Source: an uncultured Acidobacteriota bacterium (GTDB lineage Bacteria; Acidobacteriota; Terriglobia; Terriglobales; Acidobacteriaceae). From it: a stretch of DNA of 64,000 nucleotides. The DNA is taken from contig CAIQPK010000090.1 of the NCBI GenBank assembly GCA_903873705.1, forward strand, positions 1-64,000, written 5' to 3'. The first letter of the stretch is position 1. Each line of letters opens with the position of its first letter. The notes below the pieces were generated by a model, which saw only the letters and a list, made by a program, of their open reading frames with translations, made no database searches and was not told the DNA's origin. Of the stretch, positions 10,913-59,169 are shown in pieces. Made by a program: the position numbers and the translations under genes.

Positions 10913-10989
10913 GGTTCTCGGTTGTGGGTTCTCGGTTGTCGGTATAAGGCGCATAAGCACCGAAAACCGAGAACCAAGAACCCATAACC
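10913..10989. repeat. Heptad-repeat inverted array between rpsI and rpsB
   Basis: Left arm 10913-10943 is built of 7-bp units GGTTNTN. Right arm 10959-10989 is built of units ACCNANA. The 31-bp arms pair at 26 positions around a 15-bp loop, so the RNA would fold into a long hairpin. It starts 10 bp past the rpsI stop. Confidence 0.8.
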
Positions 10990-10998
10990 CCAAGCGGT

Positions 10999-11394
10999 TT
11001 ACCGCTTGCTGAACTGGAAGCGAGCGCGAGCGCCCTTCTGGCCGTACTTCTTGCGTTCCTTGCCGCGCGAATCGCGGGTGACCATGCCGCCAGCCTTGAG
11101 CGTCTTGCGGAGCTCAATGTTGAAGAGCATGAGGGCGCGAGCGATGCCGAGCTTGACGGCATCGGCCTGGCCCATGACGCCGCCGCCCTTGACCGTGGTC
11201 AGGACGTCGAAGGTCTCGTTGATGTCGGCGATGCCGAGCGGCTTTTTGGCCGCGGCGCGCTGCTGCTCGGTGACGAAGTACTCATCGAACTGCTTGCCGT
11301 TGACGGTGAACTTGCCGGAGCCGGGGCGCAGGAAGACGCGGGCGATTGCGCTCTTGCGGCGGCCGGTACCGTAGTACTGAATCAGGTCTGCCAT
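10999..11394 (-). CDS. rpsI: 30S ribosomal protein S9
   Basis: 131 aa, normal length. Conserved S9 features: [19 protein letters not shown] at the start, [14 protein letters not shown], and the C-terminal [17 protein letters not shown] whose KR end reaches the decoding centre. ATG at 11394 follows AAGAGGATTC. It is the second gene of the rplM-rpsI pair on the minus strand, with an intergenic heptad-repeat array of about 90 bp between them. Confidence 0.98.
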
Positions 11395-11408
11395 GTTGAA
11401 TCCTCTTA

Positions 11409-11500
11409 GGGGCCAGGGCTCAGGGGCCAGGGTCCAGAAAACTTTGGTGAAGCGAAACTGTTTGGCTCACTGGGCCCTGTAACCTGGGCCCTGAACCCTA
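11409..11500. repeat. Heptad-repeat inverted array between rplM and rpsI
   Basis: Left arm 11409-11435 repeats a 7-bp unit of the form GGNCAGG. Right arm 11470-11499 repeats CTGNNCC and runs into the rplM stop codon. A core of 17 bp pairs at 15 positions. Read on the mRNA strand, the units after the stop are TAGGGTT then CAGGGCC and CAGGTTA at an exact 7-nt period. Confidence 0.8.
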
Positions 11501-33503: not shown

Positions 33504-34931
33504 ATGTCCACAGCGACACTCGAACAACTCGACTACAAAGTAGCGGATATCAGCCTTGCCGATTGGGGACGCAAAGAGATCACGATCGCCGAGCAGGAGA
33601 TGCCGGGGTTGATGTCGATCCGGCGGAAGTATGCCGCGGGCAAACCGCTGAAAGGCGTTCGTGTGACGGGATCGCTGCACATGACGATCCAGACCGCTGT
33701 GCTGATCGAGACGCTGGTGGAACTGGGCGCGATCGTGCGCTGGGCCAGCTGCAACATCTTCTCCACCCAGAACCATGCGGCTGCGGCGATTGCGGCTTCC
33801 GGCGTGCCGGTGTTTGCGTGGAAGGGCGAGACGCTTGAAGAGTACTGGTGGTGCACCGACCAGGCGCTGCGTCATGAAGGCGGCAAGGGACCGCAGCTCG
33901 TCGTCGACGATGGAGGCGATGTGACGCTGCTGATCCACAAGGGCTATGAGCTGGAAAAGGGTGAGCGCGAGTGGGTTGATTCGGAAGCGCATTCGGCTGA
34001 AGAGGCGATCATCAAGGCGCTGCTGAAGCAGGTTCACGCCGAGAACGCGACGCGCTGGACGGAAGTGGCAAAGGAGTGGCGCGGGGTGTCGGAAGAGACG
34101 ACCACCGGCGTTCACCGCCTCTACAAGATGCTGGAAGCGGGCAAGCTGCTGGTGCCGGCGATCAATGTGAACGACTCGGTGACGAAGTCGAAGTTTGATA
34201 ACCTGTACGGCTGCCGCGAGTCGCTGGTGGACGGCATCAAGCGCGCGACCGATGTGATGGTGGCGGGCAAGGTCGCCGTGGTTTGCGGCTACGGTGACGT
34301 GGGCAAGGGTTCAGCGGCGAGCCTGCGCGGCCTGGGTGCACGCGTGATCGTGACCGAGGTTGATCCCATCAATGCGCTGCAGGCGGCGATGGAAGGCTAC
34401 GAAGTTACGACCATTGAAGAGACCCTGGGACGCGGCGATATCTATGTCACGTGCACCGGCAATCTCGACATCATTACCTTCGAACACATGCAGCAGATGA
34501 AGGACCAGGCGATCGTGTGCAACATTGGCCACTTCGACAACGAGATCCAGATGGCGGAGCTCGATGCGGCTAAGGGCGTTGTGAAGCTGAACATCAAGCC
34601 GCAGGTGGACCAGTACACGTTCCCCAGCGGCAACAGCATCTTCATTCTCGCTGAAGGCCGCCTGGTGAACCTGGGTTGCGCAACGGGGCACCCGAGCTTT
34701 GTGATGTCGAACAGCTTTGCCAACCAGACGCTGGCGCAGCTTGACCTGTGGGCCAACAAGGACAAGTACGAGGTTGGCGTTTACATTCTGCCGAAGAAGC
34801 TGGATGAGGAAGTCGCACGGCTGCACCTGGAGAAGATCGGTGTGAAGCTGACGACGCTATCCAAGAAGCAGGCGGATTATTTGGGCGTGTCGGTTGATGG
34901 GCCGTACAAGGCGGACCATTACCGGTACTAG
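33504..34931 (+). CDS. ahcY: Adenosylhomocysteinase
   Basis: 475 aa. It hydrolyses S-adenosylhomocysteine to adenosine and homocysteine, removing product inhibition of methyltransferases. Conserved blocks: [50 protein letters not shown] and the NAD motif [13 protein letters not shown], with the C-terminal KADHYRY. Length and C-terminus match the bacterial long form with the extra insertion. ATG at 33504 follows AAGGAGAC. No SAH riboswitch is seen. The stop codon is the first unit of a heptad array, followed by a terminator. Confidence 0.98.
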
Positions 34932-34959
34932 TTGTTAGTTCTTAGTTGTTAGTGAATAA
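34929..34959 (+). repeat. Heptad array beginning at the ahcY stop codon
   Basis: Four TAG triplets at 34929, 34936, 34943 and 34950 and a TAA at 34957 lie exactly 7 bp apart, in units of the form TAGTTNT. The first TAG is the ahcY stop. Because 7 leaves remainder 1 modulo 3, stops occur in all three frames. Confidence 0.88.
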
Positions 34960-34964
34960 AGATG

Positions 34965-34990
34965 AAGGCCACCGGCTGATCGGTGGCCTT
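34965..34990. terminator. Terminator after ahcY
   Basis: Perfect 10-bp stem aaggccaccg (34965-34974) / cggtggcctt (34981-34990), 6-nt loop. The T-run is better on the minus strand (for the gene at 35014) but weak on plus. Confidence 0.75.
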
Positions 34991-35013
34991 CGCTGTTGGT
35001 GGTTGCTTATGGC

Positions 35014-35349
35014 TTAGCGGTATTGGCCGTCGTGCTTCTGGTTGTAGATGCGGTGGGATTCGCGGTTCTGTTGGCGGGCAAGGATGTGGCGGTCCTGGGC
35101 GGTGAGGCGGCCGTCGTCGTGGGCGCGCATGTTGCGCTCTTCGTGGTTCAGCCCGGCTTCCTGGTGTTCAATCCGGCCGGCTTCACGGGGCGTCAGTTCG
35201 CCGCTGCGCACGCCCTGCGCAATGCGGTCCTGCTGATAGCTCTTGCGCGCGGCGATGTGGTGACGCTCACCGTAGGTGGTTTGAGCGAAGGCTGACGAGG
35301 CGGGAATAGCCATCAGTGCGGCTGCGAGAGCGAGGTGTTTGATGTTCAT
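35014..35349 (-). CDS. Small periplasmic protein, unknown function
   Basis: 111 aa from the ATG at 35349. A clear Sec signal (NIKHLALAAALMAIPASSAFA) ends near residue 22. The mature part is charged and helical, with repeated-looking stretches: RIAQGVRSGELTPREAGRIEHQE and RMRAHDDGRLTAQDRHILARQQ-type segments, then SHRIYNQKHD. Two similar halves suggest an internal duplication. Such proteins are common in Acidobacteria and some Proteobacteria and have no assigned function. Confidence 0.82.
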   Translation of the reverse strand: MNIKHLALAAALMAIPASSAFAQTTYGERHHIAARKSYQQDRIAQGVRSGELTPREAGRIEHQEAGLNHEERNMRAHDDGRLTAQDRHILARQQNRESHRIYNQKHDGQYR

Positions 35350-56216: not shown

Positions 56217-58685
56217 ATGAGTTCTTTGACTGGATCGTACCGCTGGCTCGACGACGACGGGCCGGCGTTCGGAGGCCCGGGGCTCGAGCCGCGCTGGACT
56301 TCAAGCAAGAAGGACGCCGTCGCCACGGCTTACGCGGCCAGCAGCCGGATCTGGTTTACGGTGTCGCATGGCACGTTGAACGAGATTTACTACCCCACCA
56401 TCGACCGCCCGCAGACCCGCGACATGGAGCTGCTGTTCACCGACGGTGAAACCTTTTTCCACGAAGAAAAGCGCGACTTCGAGTACGACTTTCACTACGT
56501 CGACCCCGACGCGCTGGCGGTCCGCGTTGTCGCCAGCGACCTGAATGGCCGCTATACCGTCATCAAGGAGTTCATCACCGACCCTCACCATCCGGTAGTG
56601 CTGATGAACGTAAAAATCAGCGGCGAGGAAGAGCTGCTCTCCAAGCTAAAGTGCTACGCCCTGCTGGCGCCGCACCTGGACGGCGGCGGCGAAGGAAACT
56701 CGGCGCGCTCGGTGAACGTGGCCGGCAAGCGCTCCATACTGGCGTGGAAGAACAACGTGTCGCTGGCCTTTGGCGCAGACTGCGGCTTCACGCGGTCAAG
56801 CTGCGGCTACGTCGGCTCGAGCGACGGCTACCAGGACATCTCCACCAACGGCAAGATGATGTGGAACTTCGGCCAGGCGTTGAACGGGAACCTTGCCGTG
56901 ATGGGCGAGATTGACGTCGCGAAGACGCGCGAGTTCACGATTGCGATTGCGCTCGGCGACGGCCACCACTCCGCGCTCGCCGGCATGATGCAAACGCTTT
57001 CGACGCCCTACGAGCTGCATCGTAAACGCTACATCGAGCAGTGGCACCGCGCGGCCTCGCCGGAGCGGCTGGCTTCAGCCGCAACCGATGGCGGCACGCT
57101 GCTGCGCGTGAGCCACAACACGATCCTGGCGCATGAAGACAAGACGTACTCCGGCGCCTTTATTGCCTCCGCATCGATCCCCTGGGGCGCGTCGAAGTCC
57201 GACGACGACCTGGGTGGTTATCACCTGGTATGGACGCGCGACATGGTGCAGTCCGCCACCTCGCTACTGGCTTGCGGGCGCATCGACACGGCCCGCCGCG
57301 CGCTGGTATACCTCGCCTGCACGCAGCGCCCGGATGGCGGCTTCGCACAGAATTTCTGGATCGACGGAACGCCCTACTGGACGGGCATTCAGCTCGACGA
57401 AGTCGCGTTCCCCATCATGCTGGCGTGGCGCTTGTGGAAGGTAGATGGGCTGGGCAGCTTCGACGTCGTGCCGTTCGTCACGATGGCCGCGGCGTTCCTC
57501 GTACGCTACGCGCCCGTCACACAGCAGGAGCGCTGGGAAGAAAATGCGGGCTACTCGCCGTCGACGCTCGCGGCCGTCATCTCCGGACTGTTATGCGCTG
57601 CGGACATCGTGAAAGCCAGCGGCAACACGACGCTGGGCGAGTTCTATAACGACTACGCCGACTGGATTGAAGCGCACCTGGATGAGTGGACCACGACAAC
57701 CGAAGGCGTGCTGCATCCCGACGTGAAGTGCCACTACATGCGCATTCGTCCGCCCGCCGTAGGCGAGCCGTTCCACATCGATGAGATCCCGGCCGGCTGC
57801 ATTCGCATCGCGAACCGCGAGCCCGGCGAGAAGAACGTCTTTGAAGCGCGCGAGGTGATCGACGGCGGCTTCCTCGAACTCGTCCGCTACGGCGTACGCC
57901 GCGCCGACGATCCGCTGATCATCGACTCACTCAAAGTCGTCGATCGCGTGCTCAAAATCGTCACGCCTTATGGCCCCTGCTGGCGGCGCTACAACCATGA
58001 CGGCTACGGCCAGCGGAAGGACGGCGGACCGTATCTCGGCTACGGACAGGGCCGCGCCTGGCCCATCATGACTGGCGAGCGAGCGCACTACGAGCTCGCA
58101 GCGGGGCAGAATGTGGCGCCCTACATCAAGGCGATCGAGCAGTTCAGCTCCATCGGCGGTATGCTGCCGGAACAAATCTGGGATTACGCCGACATGCCCT
58201 CGGAAGGCCTGTACTTCGGCCGCTCGGCGGGCTCCGCACAGCCGCTGGTGTGGGCGCACGCGGAGTACGTCAAGCTGCTGCGCTCGGTCGCTGACGGCCA
58301 CGTCTTCGACCGCATTTCGGTCGTCGAAGAACGCTACGCCGTGCCCAAGGACCAGCGGCAATTTATGAGCCGCATGGAAATCTTTCACCTGGAGCGGCCG
58401 ATCTCCGAAATGATGCAGGGCGGCACGCTGCGCATCGTCGATACGCAGCCCTTCGAGGTAACGTGGACCGTCGACGGTTGGGCGACGACGATCCACACAG
58501 CGTCCGTTGTCGTGGGGCCGCCGGGATCGTTTGCCGATCTTTGCGTCACGCCGCAGACCGAAGGCAAACTCACCTTCACGCTTTACTGGCCCGCGCAAAA
58601 TCGGTGGCTGGGACGGAACGTTGACGTGAGTATTCGCGCGCAGGCTGCTCCGACGATGCCTGCAGGCGTGAAGCCAAAAACCTAG
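56217..58685 (+). CDS. Glycoside hydrolase family 15 (glucoamylase/glucodextranase-like)
   Basis: 822 aa, normal for bacterial GH15 with an N-terminal beta-sandwich domain (about 1-270) and an (alpha/alpha)6 catalytic barrel (about 290-690). No signal peptide: it begins with a short GPGLEPRWTSSKKDAV stretch, so it is probably cytoplasmic and acts on glycogen or maltodextrin. The barrel shows YHLVWTRDMVQSATSLLACG and RPDGGFAQNFWIDGTPYWTGIQLDE, and the catalytic base region LPEQIWDYADMPSEGLYFG. The C-terminal beta domain ends WLGRNVDVSI. Its stop codon opens a heptad-repeat array. Confidence 0.95.
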   Translation: MSSLTGSYRWLDDDGPAFGGPGLEPRWTSSKKDAVATAYAASSRIWFTVSHGTLNEIYYPTIDRPQTRDMELLFTDGETFFHEEKRDFEYDFHYVDPDALAVRVVASDLNGRYTVIKEFITDPHHPVVLMNVKISGEEELLSKLKCYALLAPHLDGGGEGNSARSVNVAGKRSILAWKNNVSLAFGADCGFTRSSCGYVGSSDGYQDISTNGKMMWNFGQALNGNLAVMGEIDVAKTREFTIAIALGDGHHSALAGMMQTLSTPYELHRKRYIEQWHRAASPERLASAATDGGTLLRVSHNTILAHEDKTYSGAFIASASIPWGASKSDDDLGGYHLVWTRDMVQSATSLLACGRIDTARRALVYLACTQRPDGGFAQNFWIDGTPYWTGIQLDEVAFPIMLAWRLWKVDGLGSFDVVPFVTMAAAFLVRYAPVTQQERWEENAGYSPSTLAAVISGLLCAADIVKASGNTTLGEFYNDYADWIEAHLDEWTTTTEGVLHPDVKCHYMRIRPPAVGEPFHIDEIPAGCIRIANREPGEKNVFEAREVIDGGFLELVRYGVRRADDPLIIDSLKVVDRVLKIVTPYGPCWRRYNHDGYGQRKDGGPYLGYGQGRAWPIMTGERAHYELAAGQNVAPYIKAIEQFSSIGGMLPEQIWDYADMPSEGLYFGRSAGSAQPLVWAHAEYVKLLRSVADGHVFDRISVVEERYAVPKDQRQFMSRMEIFHLERPISEMMQGGTLRIVDTQPFEVTWTVDGWATTIHTASVVVGPPGSFADLCVTPQTEGKLTFTLYWPAQNRWLGRNVDVSIRAQAAPTMPAGVKPKT

Positions 58686-58761
58686 AGCGTAGACGGTAGA
58701 GGGTAGAGCGTAGAGAAGGATTTCACTACGATCTACACTCTACGATCTACCCTCTGTACTA
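58683..58761. repeat. Two facing TAG-heptad arrays between convergent genes
   Basis: On plus, TAG occurs at 58683 (the GH15 stop), 58690, 58697, 58704 and 58711, exactly 7 bp apart. On minus, TAG starts at 58761 (the VOC gene stop), then 58749, 58742, 58735 and 58728. About 27 bp of the two arms pair at 22 positions, forming a hairpin. Each array runs downstream of its own stop codon. Confidence 0.9.
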
Positions 58762-59169
58762 CTGATTCATCGGCTTTTCGCAGTTCACCATCCACGGGAT
58801 GCCGAAGCGGTCGGTGCACATGCCGAAGCCCTTGGCCCAGAACGTTTCCGCGAACGCCATCTGGATGCTGCCGCCTTCTGAGAGAGCCTTGAAAACGCTC
58901 TCGGCCTTGGCGAGGTCGCTGATGGAGATGGATTCCACGATCCCCTGAGCTTTCAAATGGCGCCCGGTCGGTGAGTCAGCGCCCATGATGCTGGTCTGGC
59001 CGACCGTGACGCTCATGTGCATGATCTTGTCCTTGTCTTCCGGAGCAGAGGGCATCGGCGCTTCGCCCCACGTCATCTTGAATTGCACTTTGCCTTCAAA
59101 CAGATTGGCATAGAAGGTCATGGCTTCATCGCAGGTGCCGTCGAAGGCGAGGTGTGAGCTGAGATACAT
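58759..59169 (-). CDS. VOC family (PhnB-like glyoxalase-fold) protein
   Basis: 136 aa from the ATG at 59169 (AAGGAGAACACC upstream). Glyoxalase/PhnB fold: SSHLAFDGTCDEAMTFYANLF, VGQTSIMGADSPTGRH and the C-terminal GMCTDRFGIPWMVNCEKP. PhnB-like proteins often bind metal or small ligands and are found beside AHSA1 proteins; function unproven. It is the last gene of the ArsR/SRPBCC operon. The preceding AHSA1 gene runs 44 bp into it. Confidence 0.85.
   Translation of the reverse strand: MYLSSHLAFDGTCDEAMTFYANLFEGKVQFKMTWGEAPMPSAPEDKDKIMHMSVTVGQTSIMGADSPTGRHLKAQGIVESISISDLAKAESVFKALSEGGSIQMAFAETFWAKGFGMCTDRFGIPWMVNCEKPMNQ

Follow-up and report, generated by a model that had tools for sequence, protein, structure and literature searches.

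A TAG heptad array at the ahcY stop codon of an acidobacterium as a probable copy of a genome-wide heptameric repeat

The array of TAG heptads that begins at the stop codon of ahcY in an uncultured acidobacterium is probably a single member of a class of degenerate seven-base repeats that is dispersed over the genome, turns over rapidly, and is sorted by selection. Arrays of this period recur throughout the genome, favor particular positions relative to genes, and form inverted pairs. They also lie within the gene for MnmG, at sites that are filled in some species and empty in others, and their units differ between relatives. The stops in every frame appear to follow from the seven-base unit and not to be its purpose; what looks like a stop signal at the end of a gene can result from repeat arithmetic combined with selection.

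The ahcY Array and Its Surroundings

The window, a stretch of 64,000 nucleotides, harbors the features of Table 1. The ahcY product has Granulicella rosea (83%) as its nearest named relative among the matches listed, and the stop codon of its open reading frame (ORF) is the first TAG, and first unit, of the array. Direct reading of the window gives TAG at 34929, 34936, 34943, and 34950, then TAA at 34957, exactly as described in an initial annotation of this DNA. The letters of 34929–34959 are TAGTTGT TAGTTCT TAGTTGT TAGTGAA TAA, and 16 of 18 lag-7 comparisons are identical. Stops occur in every frame after ahcY because the 7-nt unit contains TAG. This point, also made in the initial annotation, holds by arithmetic for any such unit; we conclude that all-frame stops are arithmetic and not evidence of design.

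A hairpin that the initial annotation did not include begins 31–32 nt past the ahcY stop, the gap between stop and stem being filled by the array. It scores as a terminator-like element for the convergent ORF 35014–35349, on the minus strand, while its plus-strand tail is too T-poor for the terminator rule. A search of the window against Rfam at the gathering threshold returned no match to a known RNA family.

Table 1. Heptad arrays of the window with their partner arms, and the gene and hairpin flanking the ahcY array
Feature	Position	Strand	Basis or remark
ahcY, S-adenosylhomocysteine hydrolase	33504–34931	+	ORF; Pfam PF05221, E 1.8e-152
Heptad array TAGTTGT TAGTTCT TAGTTGT TAGTGA(A); TAA at 34957	34929–34955	+	16/18 lag-7 matches
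GC-rich hairpin between ahcY and convergent ORF 35014–35349	34964–34991	.	Hairpin/terminator scan
Array GGTTCTC GGTTGTG..., one arm of an inverted pair between rpsB and rpsI	10913–10944	+	Gene names from Pfam
Inverted partner arm of 10913–10944; begins 7 bp from the rpsI ORF	10956–10991	-	Partner score 37
Stop-free dialect array AGGGGCC AGGGCTC AGGGGCC AGGGTCC between rpsI and rplM	11408–11438	+	Gene names from Pfam
Inverted partner region of 11408–11438, adjoining the rplM ORF end	11470–11497	-	Tandem-repeat listing; partner score 26
Array TAGAGCG TAGACGG TAGAGGG TAGAGCG TAGAG	58681–58717	+	Period-7 scan; gene by Pfam
Inverted partner arm of 58681–58717, at the 3′ end of convergent ORF 58759–59169	58726–58755	-	Partner search

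Three further array sites are present in the window (10913–10991, 11408–11497, and 58681–58755). At the last of these, the first TAG is the stop of a GH15 glucodextranase-like gene (56217–58685), and the convergent ORF 58759–59169 has Pfam matches to the 3-dmu-9_3-mt and glyoxalase models. Both gaps of the rplM–rpsI–rpsB ribosomal gene group hold heptad inverted pairs (10913–11497).

Genome-Wide Census and Period

The census covers 770,542 bp of the same genome, about 18% of 4.18 Mb, with genes called by a simple custom codon-model caller and an array scored at 14 or more of 18 lag-7 matches. It contains 74 period-7 arrays, 55 intergenic and 19 within ORFs by these gene calls. Several unit dialects coexist in the one genome (among them TAGTTNT, GTAGAGN, GTGAATA, GGGATTA, and CAGGGNC). 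In the first 451,636 bp, lag 7 yields 33 sites as opposed to 1–2 at lags 8, 10, 11, and 13. Lags 6, 12, and 14 yield 65, 44, and 24 sites, respectively, with the high counts at multiples of three arising because coding DNA yields them. Over the whole genome, a pattern of four TAG heptads has 109 matches and the reversed pattern has 6.

The initial annotation called for a check on 7-bp periodicity after stop codons, and this periodicity is present. Among 600 windows of the sampled genome running from the stop codon to +60, a lag-7 array (score of at least 14) is found in 32 and, after shuffling, in one. Lags 5, 8, 9, 10, 11, and 13 give 0–2 such windows, lag 6 gives 5, and lag 14 gives 23; the signal is therefore above chance and has a period of 7 (and its multiple 14). 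Arrays are not equally common away from stops: they occur in 2/584 mid-gene windows, in 1/603 windows over the last 60 bases of genes, and in 15/593 windows before starts, fewer than after stops (P = 0.016). Thus, of the stop-anchored form proposed there, the enrichment after stops stands, while the anchoring is not exclusive, since arrays also precede starts and 19/74 lie inside ORFs.

Placement, Polarity, and Inverted Partners

Polarity is defined here by the array strand with more G than C (the G strand). In 38 of 54 intergenic arrays, no more than 20 bp separate its 5′ edge from a gene boundary (27 sense at stops, 11 antisense at starts), compared with only 7/54 for its 3′ edge. In 31/54, the 5′ edge lies within 7 bp of the boundary, where random placement predicts 3.2%. 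Gaps between convergent genes contain arrays in 17/75 cases versus 5/107 for divergent gaps. Array and stop codon share a register in 11 of the 26 post-stop cases scored (3.7 expected), as they do at ahcY, although this agreement is automatic where an array overlaps an ORF end, as 13 do. Several arrays start a few bases from a stop (TAA, TAG, or TGA), and their head contains GCAG.

A third of the arrays (25/73) have a convergent inverted partner within 160 bp downstream, compared with 0.3% in shuffles and 7% with swapped flanks; upstream, a partner was found for none of 74. When arms were compared with their own and with other partners, the own partner ranked best in 4/25 arms; no conclusion is drawn from this ranking, because its competitors included the arm's own sequence where both arms were listed and the CAGGGNC arms are all alike.

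The consistent strand polarity, together with the GGG of the GGGATTA and CAGGGNC units, could point to a Rho insulator, in which the C-rich antisense strand serves as a Rho site, or to a G-quadruplex of the G-rich strand. However, a Rho search rule given in the available text of PMC6407284 wants cytosines every 11–13 nt over 78 nt, a spacing that heptads do not fit. Heptads of the same polarity are also described for Nostoc (in the available text of PMC4692102), although cyanobacteria are without Rho according to an excerpt of PMC13289151. The G-quadruplex is rejected because the ahcY unit TAGTTNT and two other dialects, GTAGAGN and GTGAATA, contain no GGG. Both forms of this explanation are highly improbable.

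ahcY Ends in the Genus

ahcY is found in 27 of 28 genomes of the genus, own included, and 25 gene ends are readable. A period-7 excess in the 75 bases from the stop characterizes 11 of these 25, while other lags from 4 to 16 are seen in at most one each, except lag 14 (7/25). Nine of the 11 reach the array cut-off between stop and stem; L154 and L160 fall short. Different units occupy the same place after ahcY in relatives, and the own unit, TAGTTNT, is present in only 2 of the 28 genomes.

The best rival explanation assigns the array a role as a stop-to-terminator spacer or terminator extension. The array would keep the terminating ribosome off the hairpin and, where both arms exist, these would lengthen the stem for both convergent genes. 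The stop-to-stem distance is 27–50 nt in the nine orthologs with an array and 15–22 nt in nine of 11 without (69 and 85 nt in the remaining two), a contrast that is partly circular because scoring an array itself takes about 25 nt. No stem was found in five further orthologs without an array. The available text of Li 2015 (PMC4824070) places full termination at tR2 only beyond about 27–30 nt from the stop codon, which agrees with the longer distances. In the sampled genome, 12/27 post-stop arrays have a stem of at least eight pairs in the following 65 nt (9.8% in shuffles), and 42/249 stops that lack an array have such a stem in a +30 to +100 window. In the predicted folds of L149–L153, heptad arms pair around the hairpin core. 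Against this explanation, orthologs of the same genus manage with gaps of 15–22 nt, and the arrays before starts and inside ORFs are left unexplained. A spacer or extension role is considered unlikely. The near-perfect arms predicted around the hairpin in L150 and L151 fit hairpin-templated copying, a process invoked below for the favored heptameric repeat class.

The initial annotation suggested, as one possibility, that the array could act as a frame-proof block to readthrough or frameshifted ribosomes; on this view, it would be a selected stop cassette. Arrays do bring stops at ahcY ends: within the next 45 nt, all-frame stops occur in six of nine array-bearing orthologs and in one of 16 without an array. 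The enrichment of arrays after stops, and the all-frame stops on the G strand of 20/27 post-stop arrays, likewise speak for a cassette. However, 9/12 arrays lying antisense before starts are equally stop-bearing (Fisher P = 1; small numbers), and there the stops cannot end translation of the adjacent gene. Stop content is thus not specific to post-stop placement. Moreover, three of the nine ahcY ortholog arrays have no all-frame stops, namely, those of L145 (CAGGGCC-type), L152, and L153 (ACAGGAA). In several genomes of the phylum, the reversed GAT pattern, whose units do not have to contain a stop, is far commoner than TAG heptads (237 versus 5 in G230, 275 versus 20 in G315, and 104 versus 0 in G318). 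A selected cassette is very unlikely, and it is rejected as the main reading on three grounds: the equal stop content of arrays antisense before starts, the ortholog arrays that lack stops in every frame, and the counts of the reversed pattern.

Arrays Inside Coding Sequences

By the custom gene calls, the 19 in-ORF arrays lie in 10 ORFs. Ten of the 19 have an inverted partner, and 15 carry no stop on the G strand. MnmG, identified by Pfam PF01134, is the one ORF in which insertion is supported by orthologs, and it shows a stop-free dialect lying in frame inside a gene. From inspection by eye, we take some of the other array-bearing ORFs to resemble TsaD, RNase R, PolA, GlmM, and AspS.

The own MnmG (G000:C35:63673-66075; L179:3673-6075, L220) is 800 amino acids long and has several in-frame heptad inserts. 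A housekeeping protein can thus contain translated repeat DNA. The same protein carries the peptide CHPERSEGPA, which resembles the translation of another dispersed repeat; similar peptides are found in G205, G208, and G202.

In the listed parts of the genus alignment, MnmG varies at several loops, which are short in some species and hold heptad or other inserts in others. One loop was compared in 22 of 25 ORFs (G205, G064, and G203, without a searched motif, were left out). It holds CAGGGCC/CAGGGTT arms in the own genome, GGGATTA arms in G200, and a CTACGCT-type arm in G202. The loop is short in nine genomes (G140, G219, G207, G174, G216, G201, G158, G204, and G206) and contains other or unclassified sequence in the remaining rows. 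In the left arm of G200, one unit has CAG in place of the TAG that would be in frame there, which is consistent with selection against stops within genes.

Filled and empty MnmG sites are also what a mobile element would leave, with a transposase, for example a REP-associated Y1 transposase (RAYT), acting in trans to move arrays or array pairs. TAG arrays occur in 141/179 family genomes with a Y1_Tnp match and in 9/21 without (P = 0.0009), an association tallied by eye (one of the 21 taken as G189 by elimination) and one that genome size and completeness may confound. The available text of PMC3733652 adds that acidobacterial RAYTs form their own group. However, the content at one site differs between species, and the two Y1_Tnp matches in the own genome have arrays about 0.25 kb (score 13, below the usual cut-off) and 0.5 kb away that do not flank them. 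G139 has 115 TAG-array matches (2 for the control) and no Y1_Tnp match, whereas a GTAG REP/RAYT system would be expected to place Y1_Tnp in every array-bearing genome. RAYT mobilization is accordingly associated with arrays but not required, and movement as a mobile element is improbable. Beside one of the two Y1 matches, on contig C34 of the own genome, two CAGGGCC arrays lie about 0.5 kb away (L271:2254-2445).

For the favored class of fast-turning heptameric repeats, we infer a two-step origin from these patterns. Arrays would spread and turn over by replication slippage and hairpin-templated copying between arms, and selection would then sort them by unit. TAG dialects would survive between genes and over a gene's last codons, with the array providing the stop there, and would be kept out of gene interiors because they would truncate the gene. 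Stop-free dialects (CAGGGCC and CAGGGTT) may persist in ORFs as in-frame peptide inserts. The accumulation of arrays at stop codons would then be due in part to stops that the arrays themselves can provide. Selection alone does not explain the arrays that start a few bases from stops with a GCAG-containing head, nor does selection against in-ORF stops alone explain why the G strand faces away from starts.

Relation to Known Repeats

The short tandemly repeated repetitive (STRR) heptamers of cyanobacteria and the heptanucleotide hairpins of tRNA-Leu introns are degenerate heptads with complementary arms forming a hairpin, as are the arrays described here. They are not known to occur at stop codons of protein genes. 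Rickettsia palindromic elements are palindromic repeats inserted in frame in protein-coding genes and in this respect resemble the in-ORF arrays, although they are not known to have heptad arms and form larger, homogeneous families.

The closest known kind are the heptameric GGGAATC and GGGGA(C/T)T repeats of Xanthomonas and Nostoc (Rehm et al. 2015, PMC4692102), which follow the same positional rules with a different unit; the initial annotation was right to point to heptameric repeats. As far as the available text of that paper goes, the two share degenerate 7-nt units dispersed over the genome, with period 7 standing out over other periods. In both, the G-rich strand lies downstream of stops in sense orientation or upstream of starts in antisense orientation, at a distance of no more than 50 bp, arrays overlap stop codons and form convergent inverted pairs, few lie between divergent genes, and some are intragenic. 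From this match, the phenomenon is known in kind. In contrast to those repeats, however, several dialects coexist in one genome here, some without G-tracts, and different units occupy the same site in congeners. In-ORF copies also seem more frequent, at 19/74 with 55/74 intergenic by the custom gene calls, whereas the same source gives 89–93% intergenic in Xanthomonas. The G-tract unit GGGNATC, described there as able to form a G-quadruplex, has no counterpart in the ahcY array, which contains no GGG.

The TAACTGA direct repeats of Beggiatoaceae, cyanobacteria, and Bacteroidetes (MacGregor 2015, PMC4679880, available text) are likewise intergenic, stop-bearing heptamers able to overlap ORF ends; that paper notes their recurring stops and that only the end of an ORF can be overlapped, which comes close to the arithmetic argument made here for TAG units. 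They differ in having one fixed unit, mostly sense and just upstream of start codons, and only one inverted repeat in the genome described. GTAG REPs and their RAYTs, as presented in the available text of PMC3733652, are short palindromic repeats, many of which lie outside genes and in inverted dimers. Each is a single short stem-loop with a GTAG tag, for which that text describes no period-7 arms, and Acidobacteria are not among the phyla it names for GTAG repeats.

A literature search, with most subscription journals outside its coverage, found no report of heptad arrays in Acidobacteria. Different from the Rehm repeats are the many dialects, some without G-tracts, the replacement of units at fixed places between species, and an apparently larger share of in-ORF copies. 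On the preference of bacteria for seven-base repeats, the discussion of Rehm et al. (PMC4692102), in its available text, cites only a polymerase-footprint conjecture. The genus offers a natural experiment, in which the place stays and the unit is replaced.

Distribution in the Family, the Phylum, and Beyond

At least one TAG array is present in 150 of 200 family genomes, with the reversed control also matched in many, and at the places listed, the units differ between species. Random 20-kb stretches from 20 family genomes (400 kb) contain a single array, and the array density of the own genome is unusual for that reason. Four more family genomes contain seven arrays in 400 kb (5, 1, 1, and 0 per 100 kb in G206, G140, G174, and G066, respectively). 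No claim is made that relatives are alike in array density, which falls sharply in other family members. Across the phylum, TAG heptads are found in 63 of 149 genomes, own family included.

Among 80 ahcY loci whose records carry public titles (many groups, 1.24 Mb in total), 57 period-7 arrays are found, compared with 7–20 at each of periods 5, 8, 10, 11, and 13. An inverted partner accompanies 14 of the 57. Inverted pairing is not unique to period 7, since 4 of the 20 period-8 arrays in these loci also have a partner (0.4 expected).

Arrays are seen in the own genome, in its genus, and in loci labeled Verrucomicrobia, PVC, and Bacteroidales. Heptad hairpin arrays might even constitute one widespread bacterial class, in which the sites are of the same kinds throughout (the gap between stop and terminator, antisense before starts, and permissive protein loops) but each species has a 7-nt dialect of its own, although this broader view is improbable. 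If true, it would imply an unrecognized activity that makes or homogenizes 7-nt units genome-wide, of which a templated polymerase and hairpin-directed copying would be two examples.

Period-7 arrays with an inverted partner lie near ahcY in L026, L029, L037, L051, L063, L075, and L089, which are titled Proteobacteria, PVC group, Methylacidimicrobium, Bacteroidia, Azobacteroides, Bacteroides, and Marinimicrobia, respectively. In the phylum sample of 149, the most TAG-heptad matches are found in G267 (1640, with 282 for the control). A long, perfect TAGGTTT array is present at G028:C10:1486831-1486959, a heptamer similar to plant-type telomere repeats.
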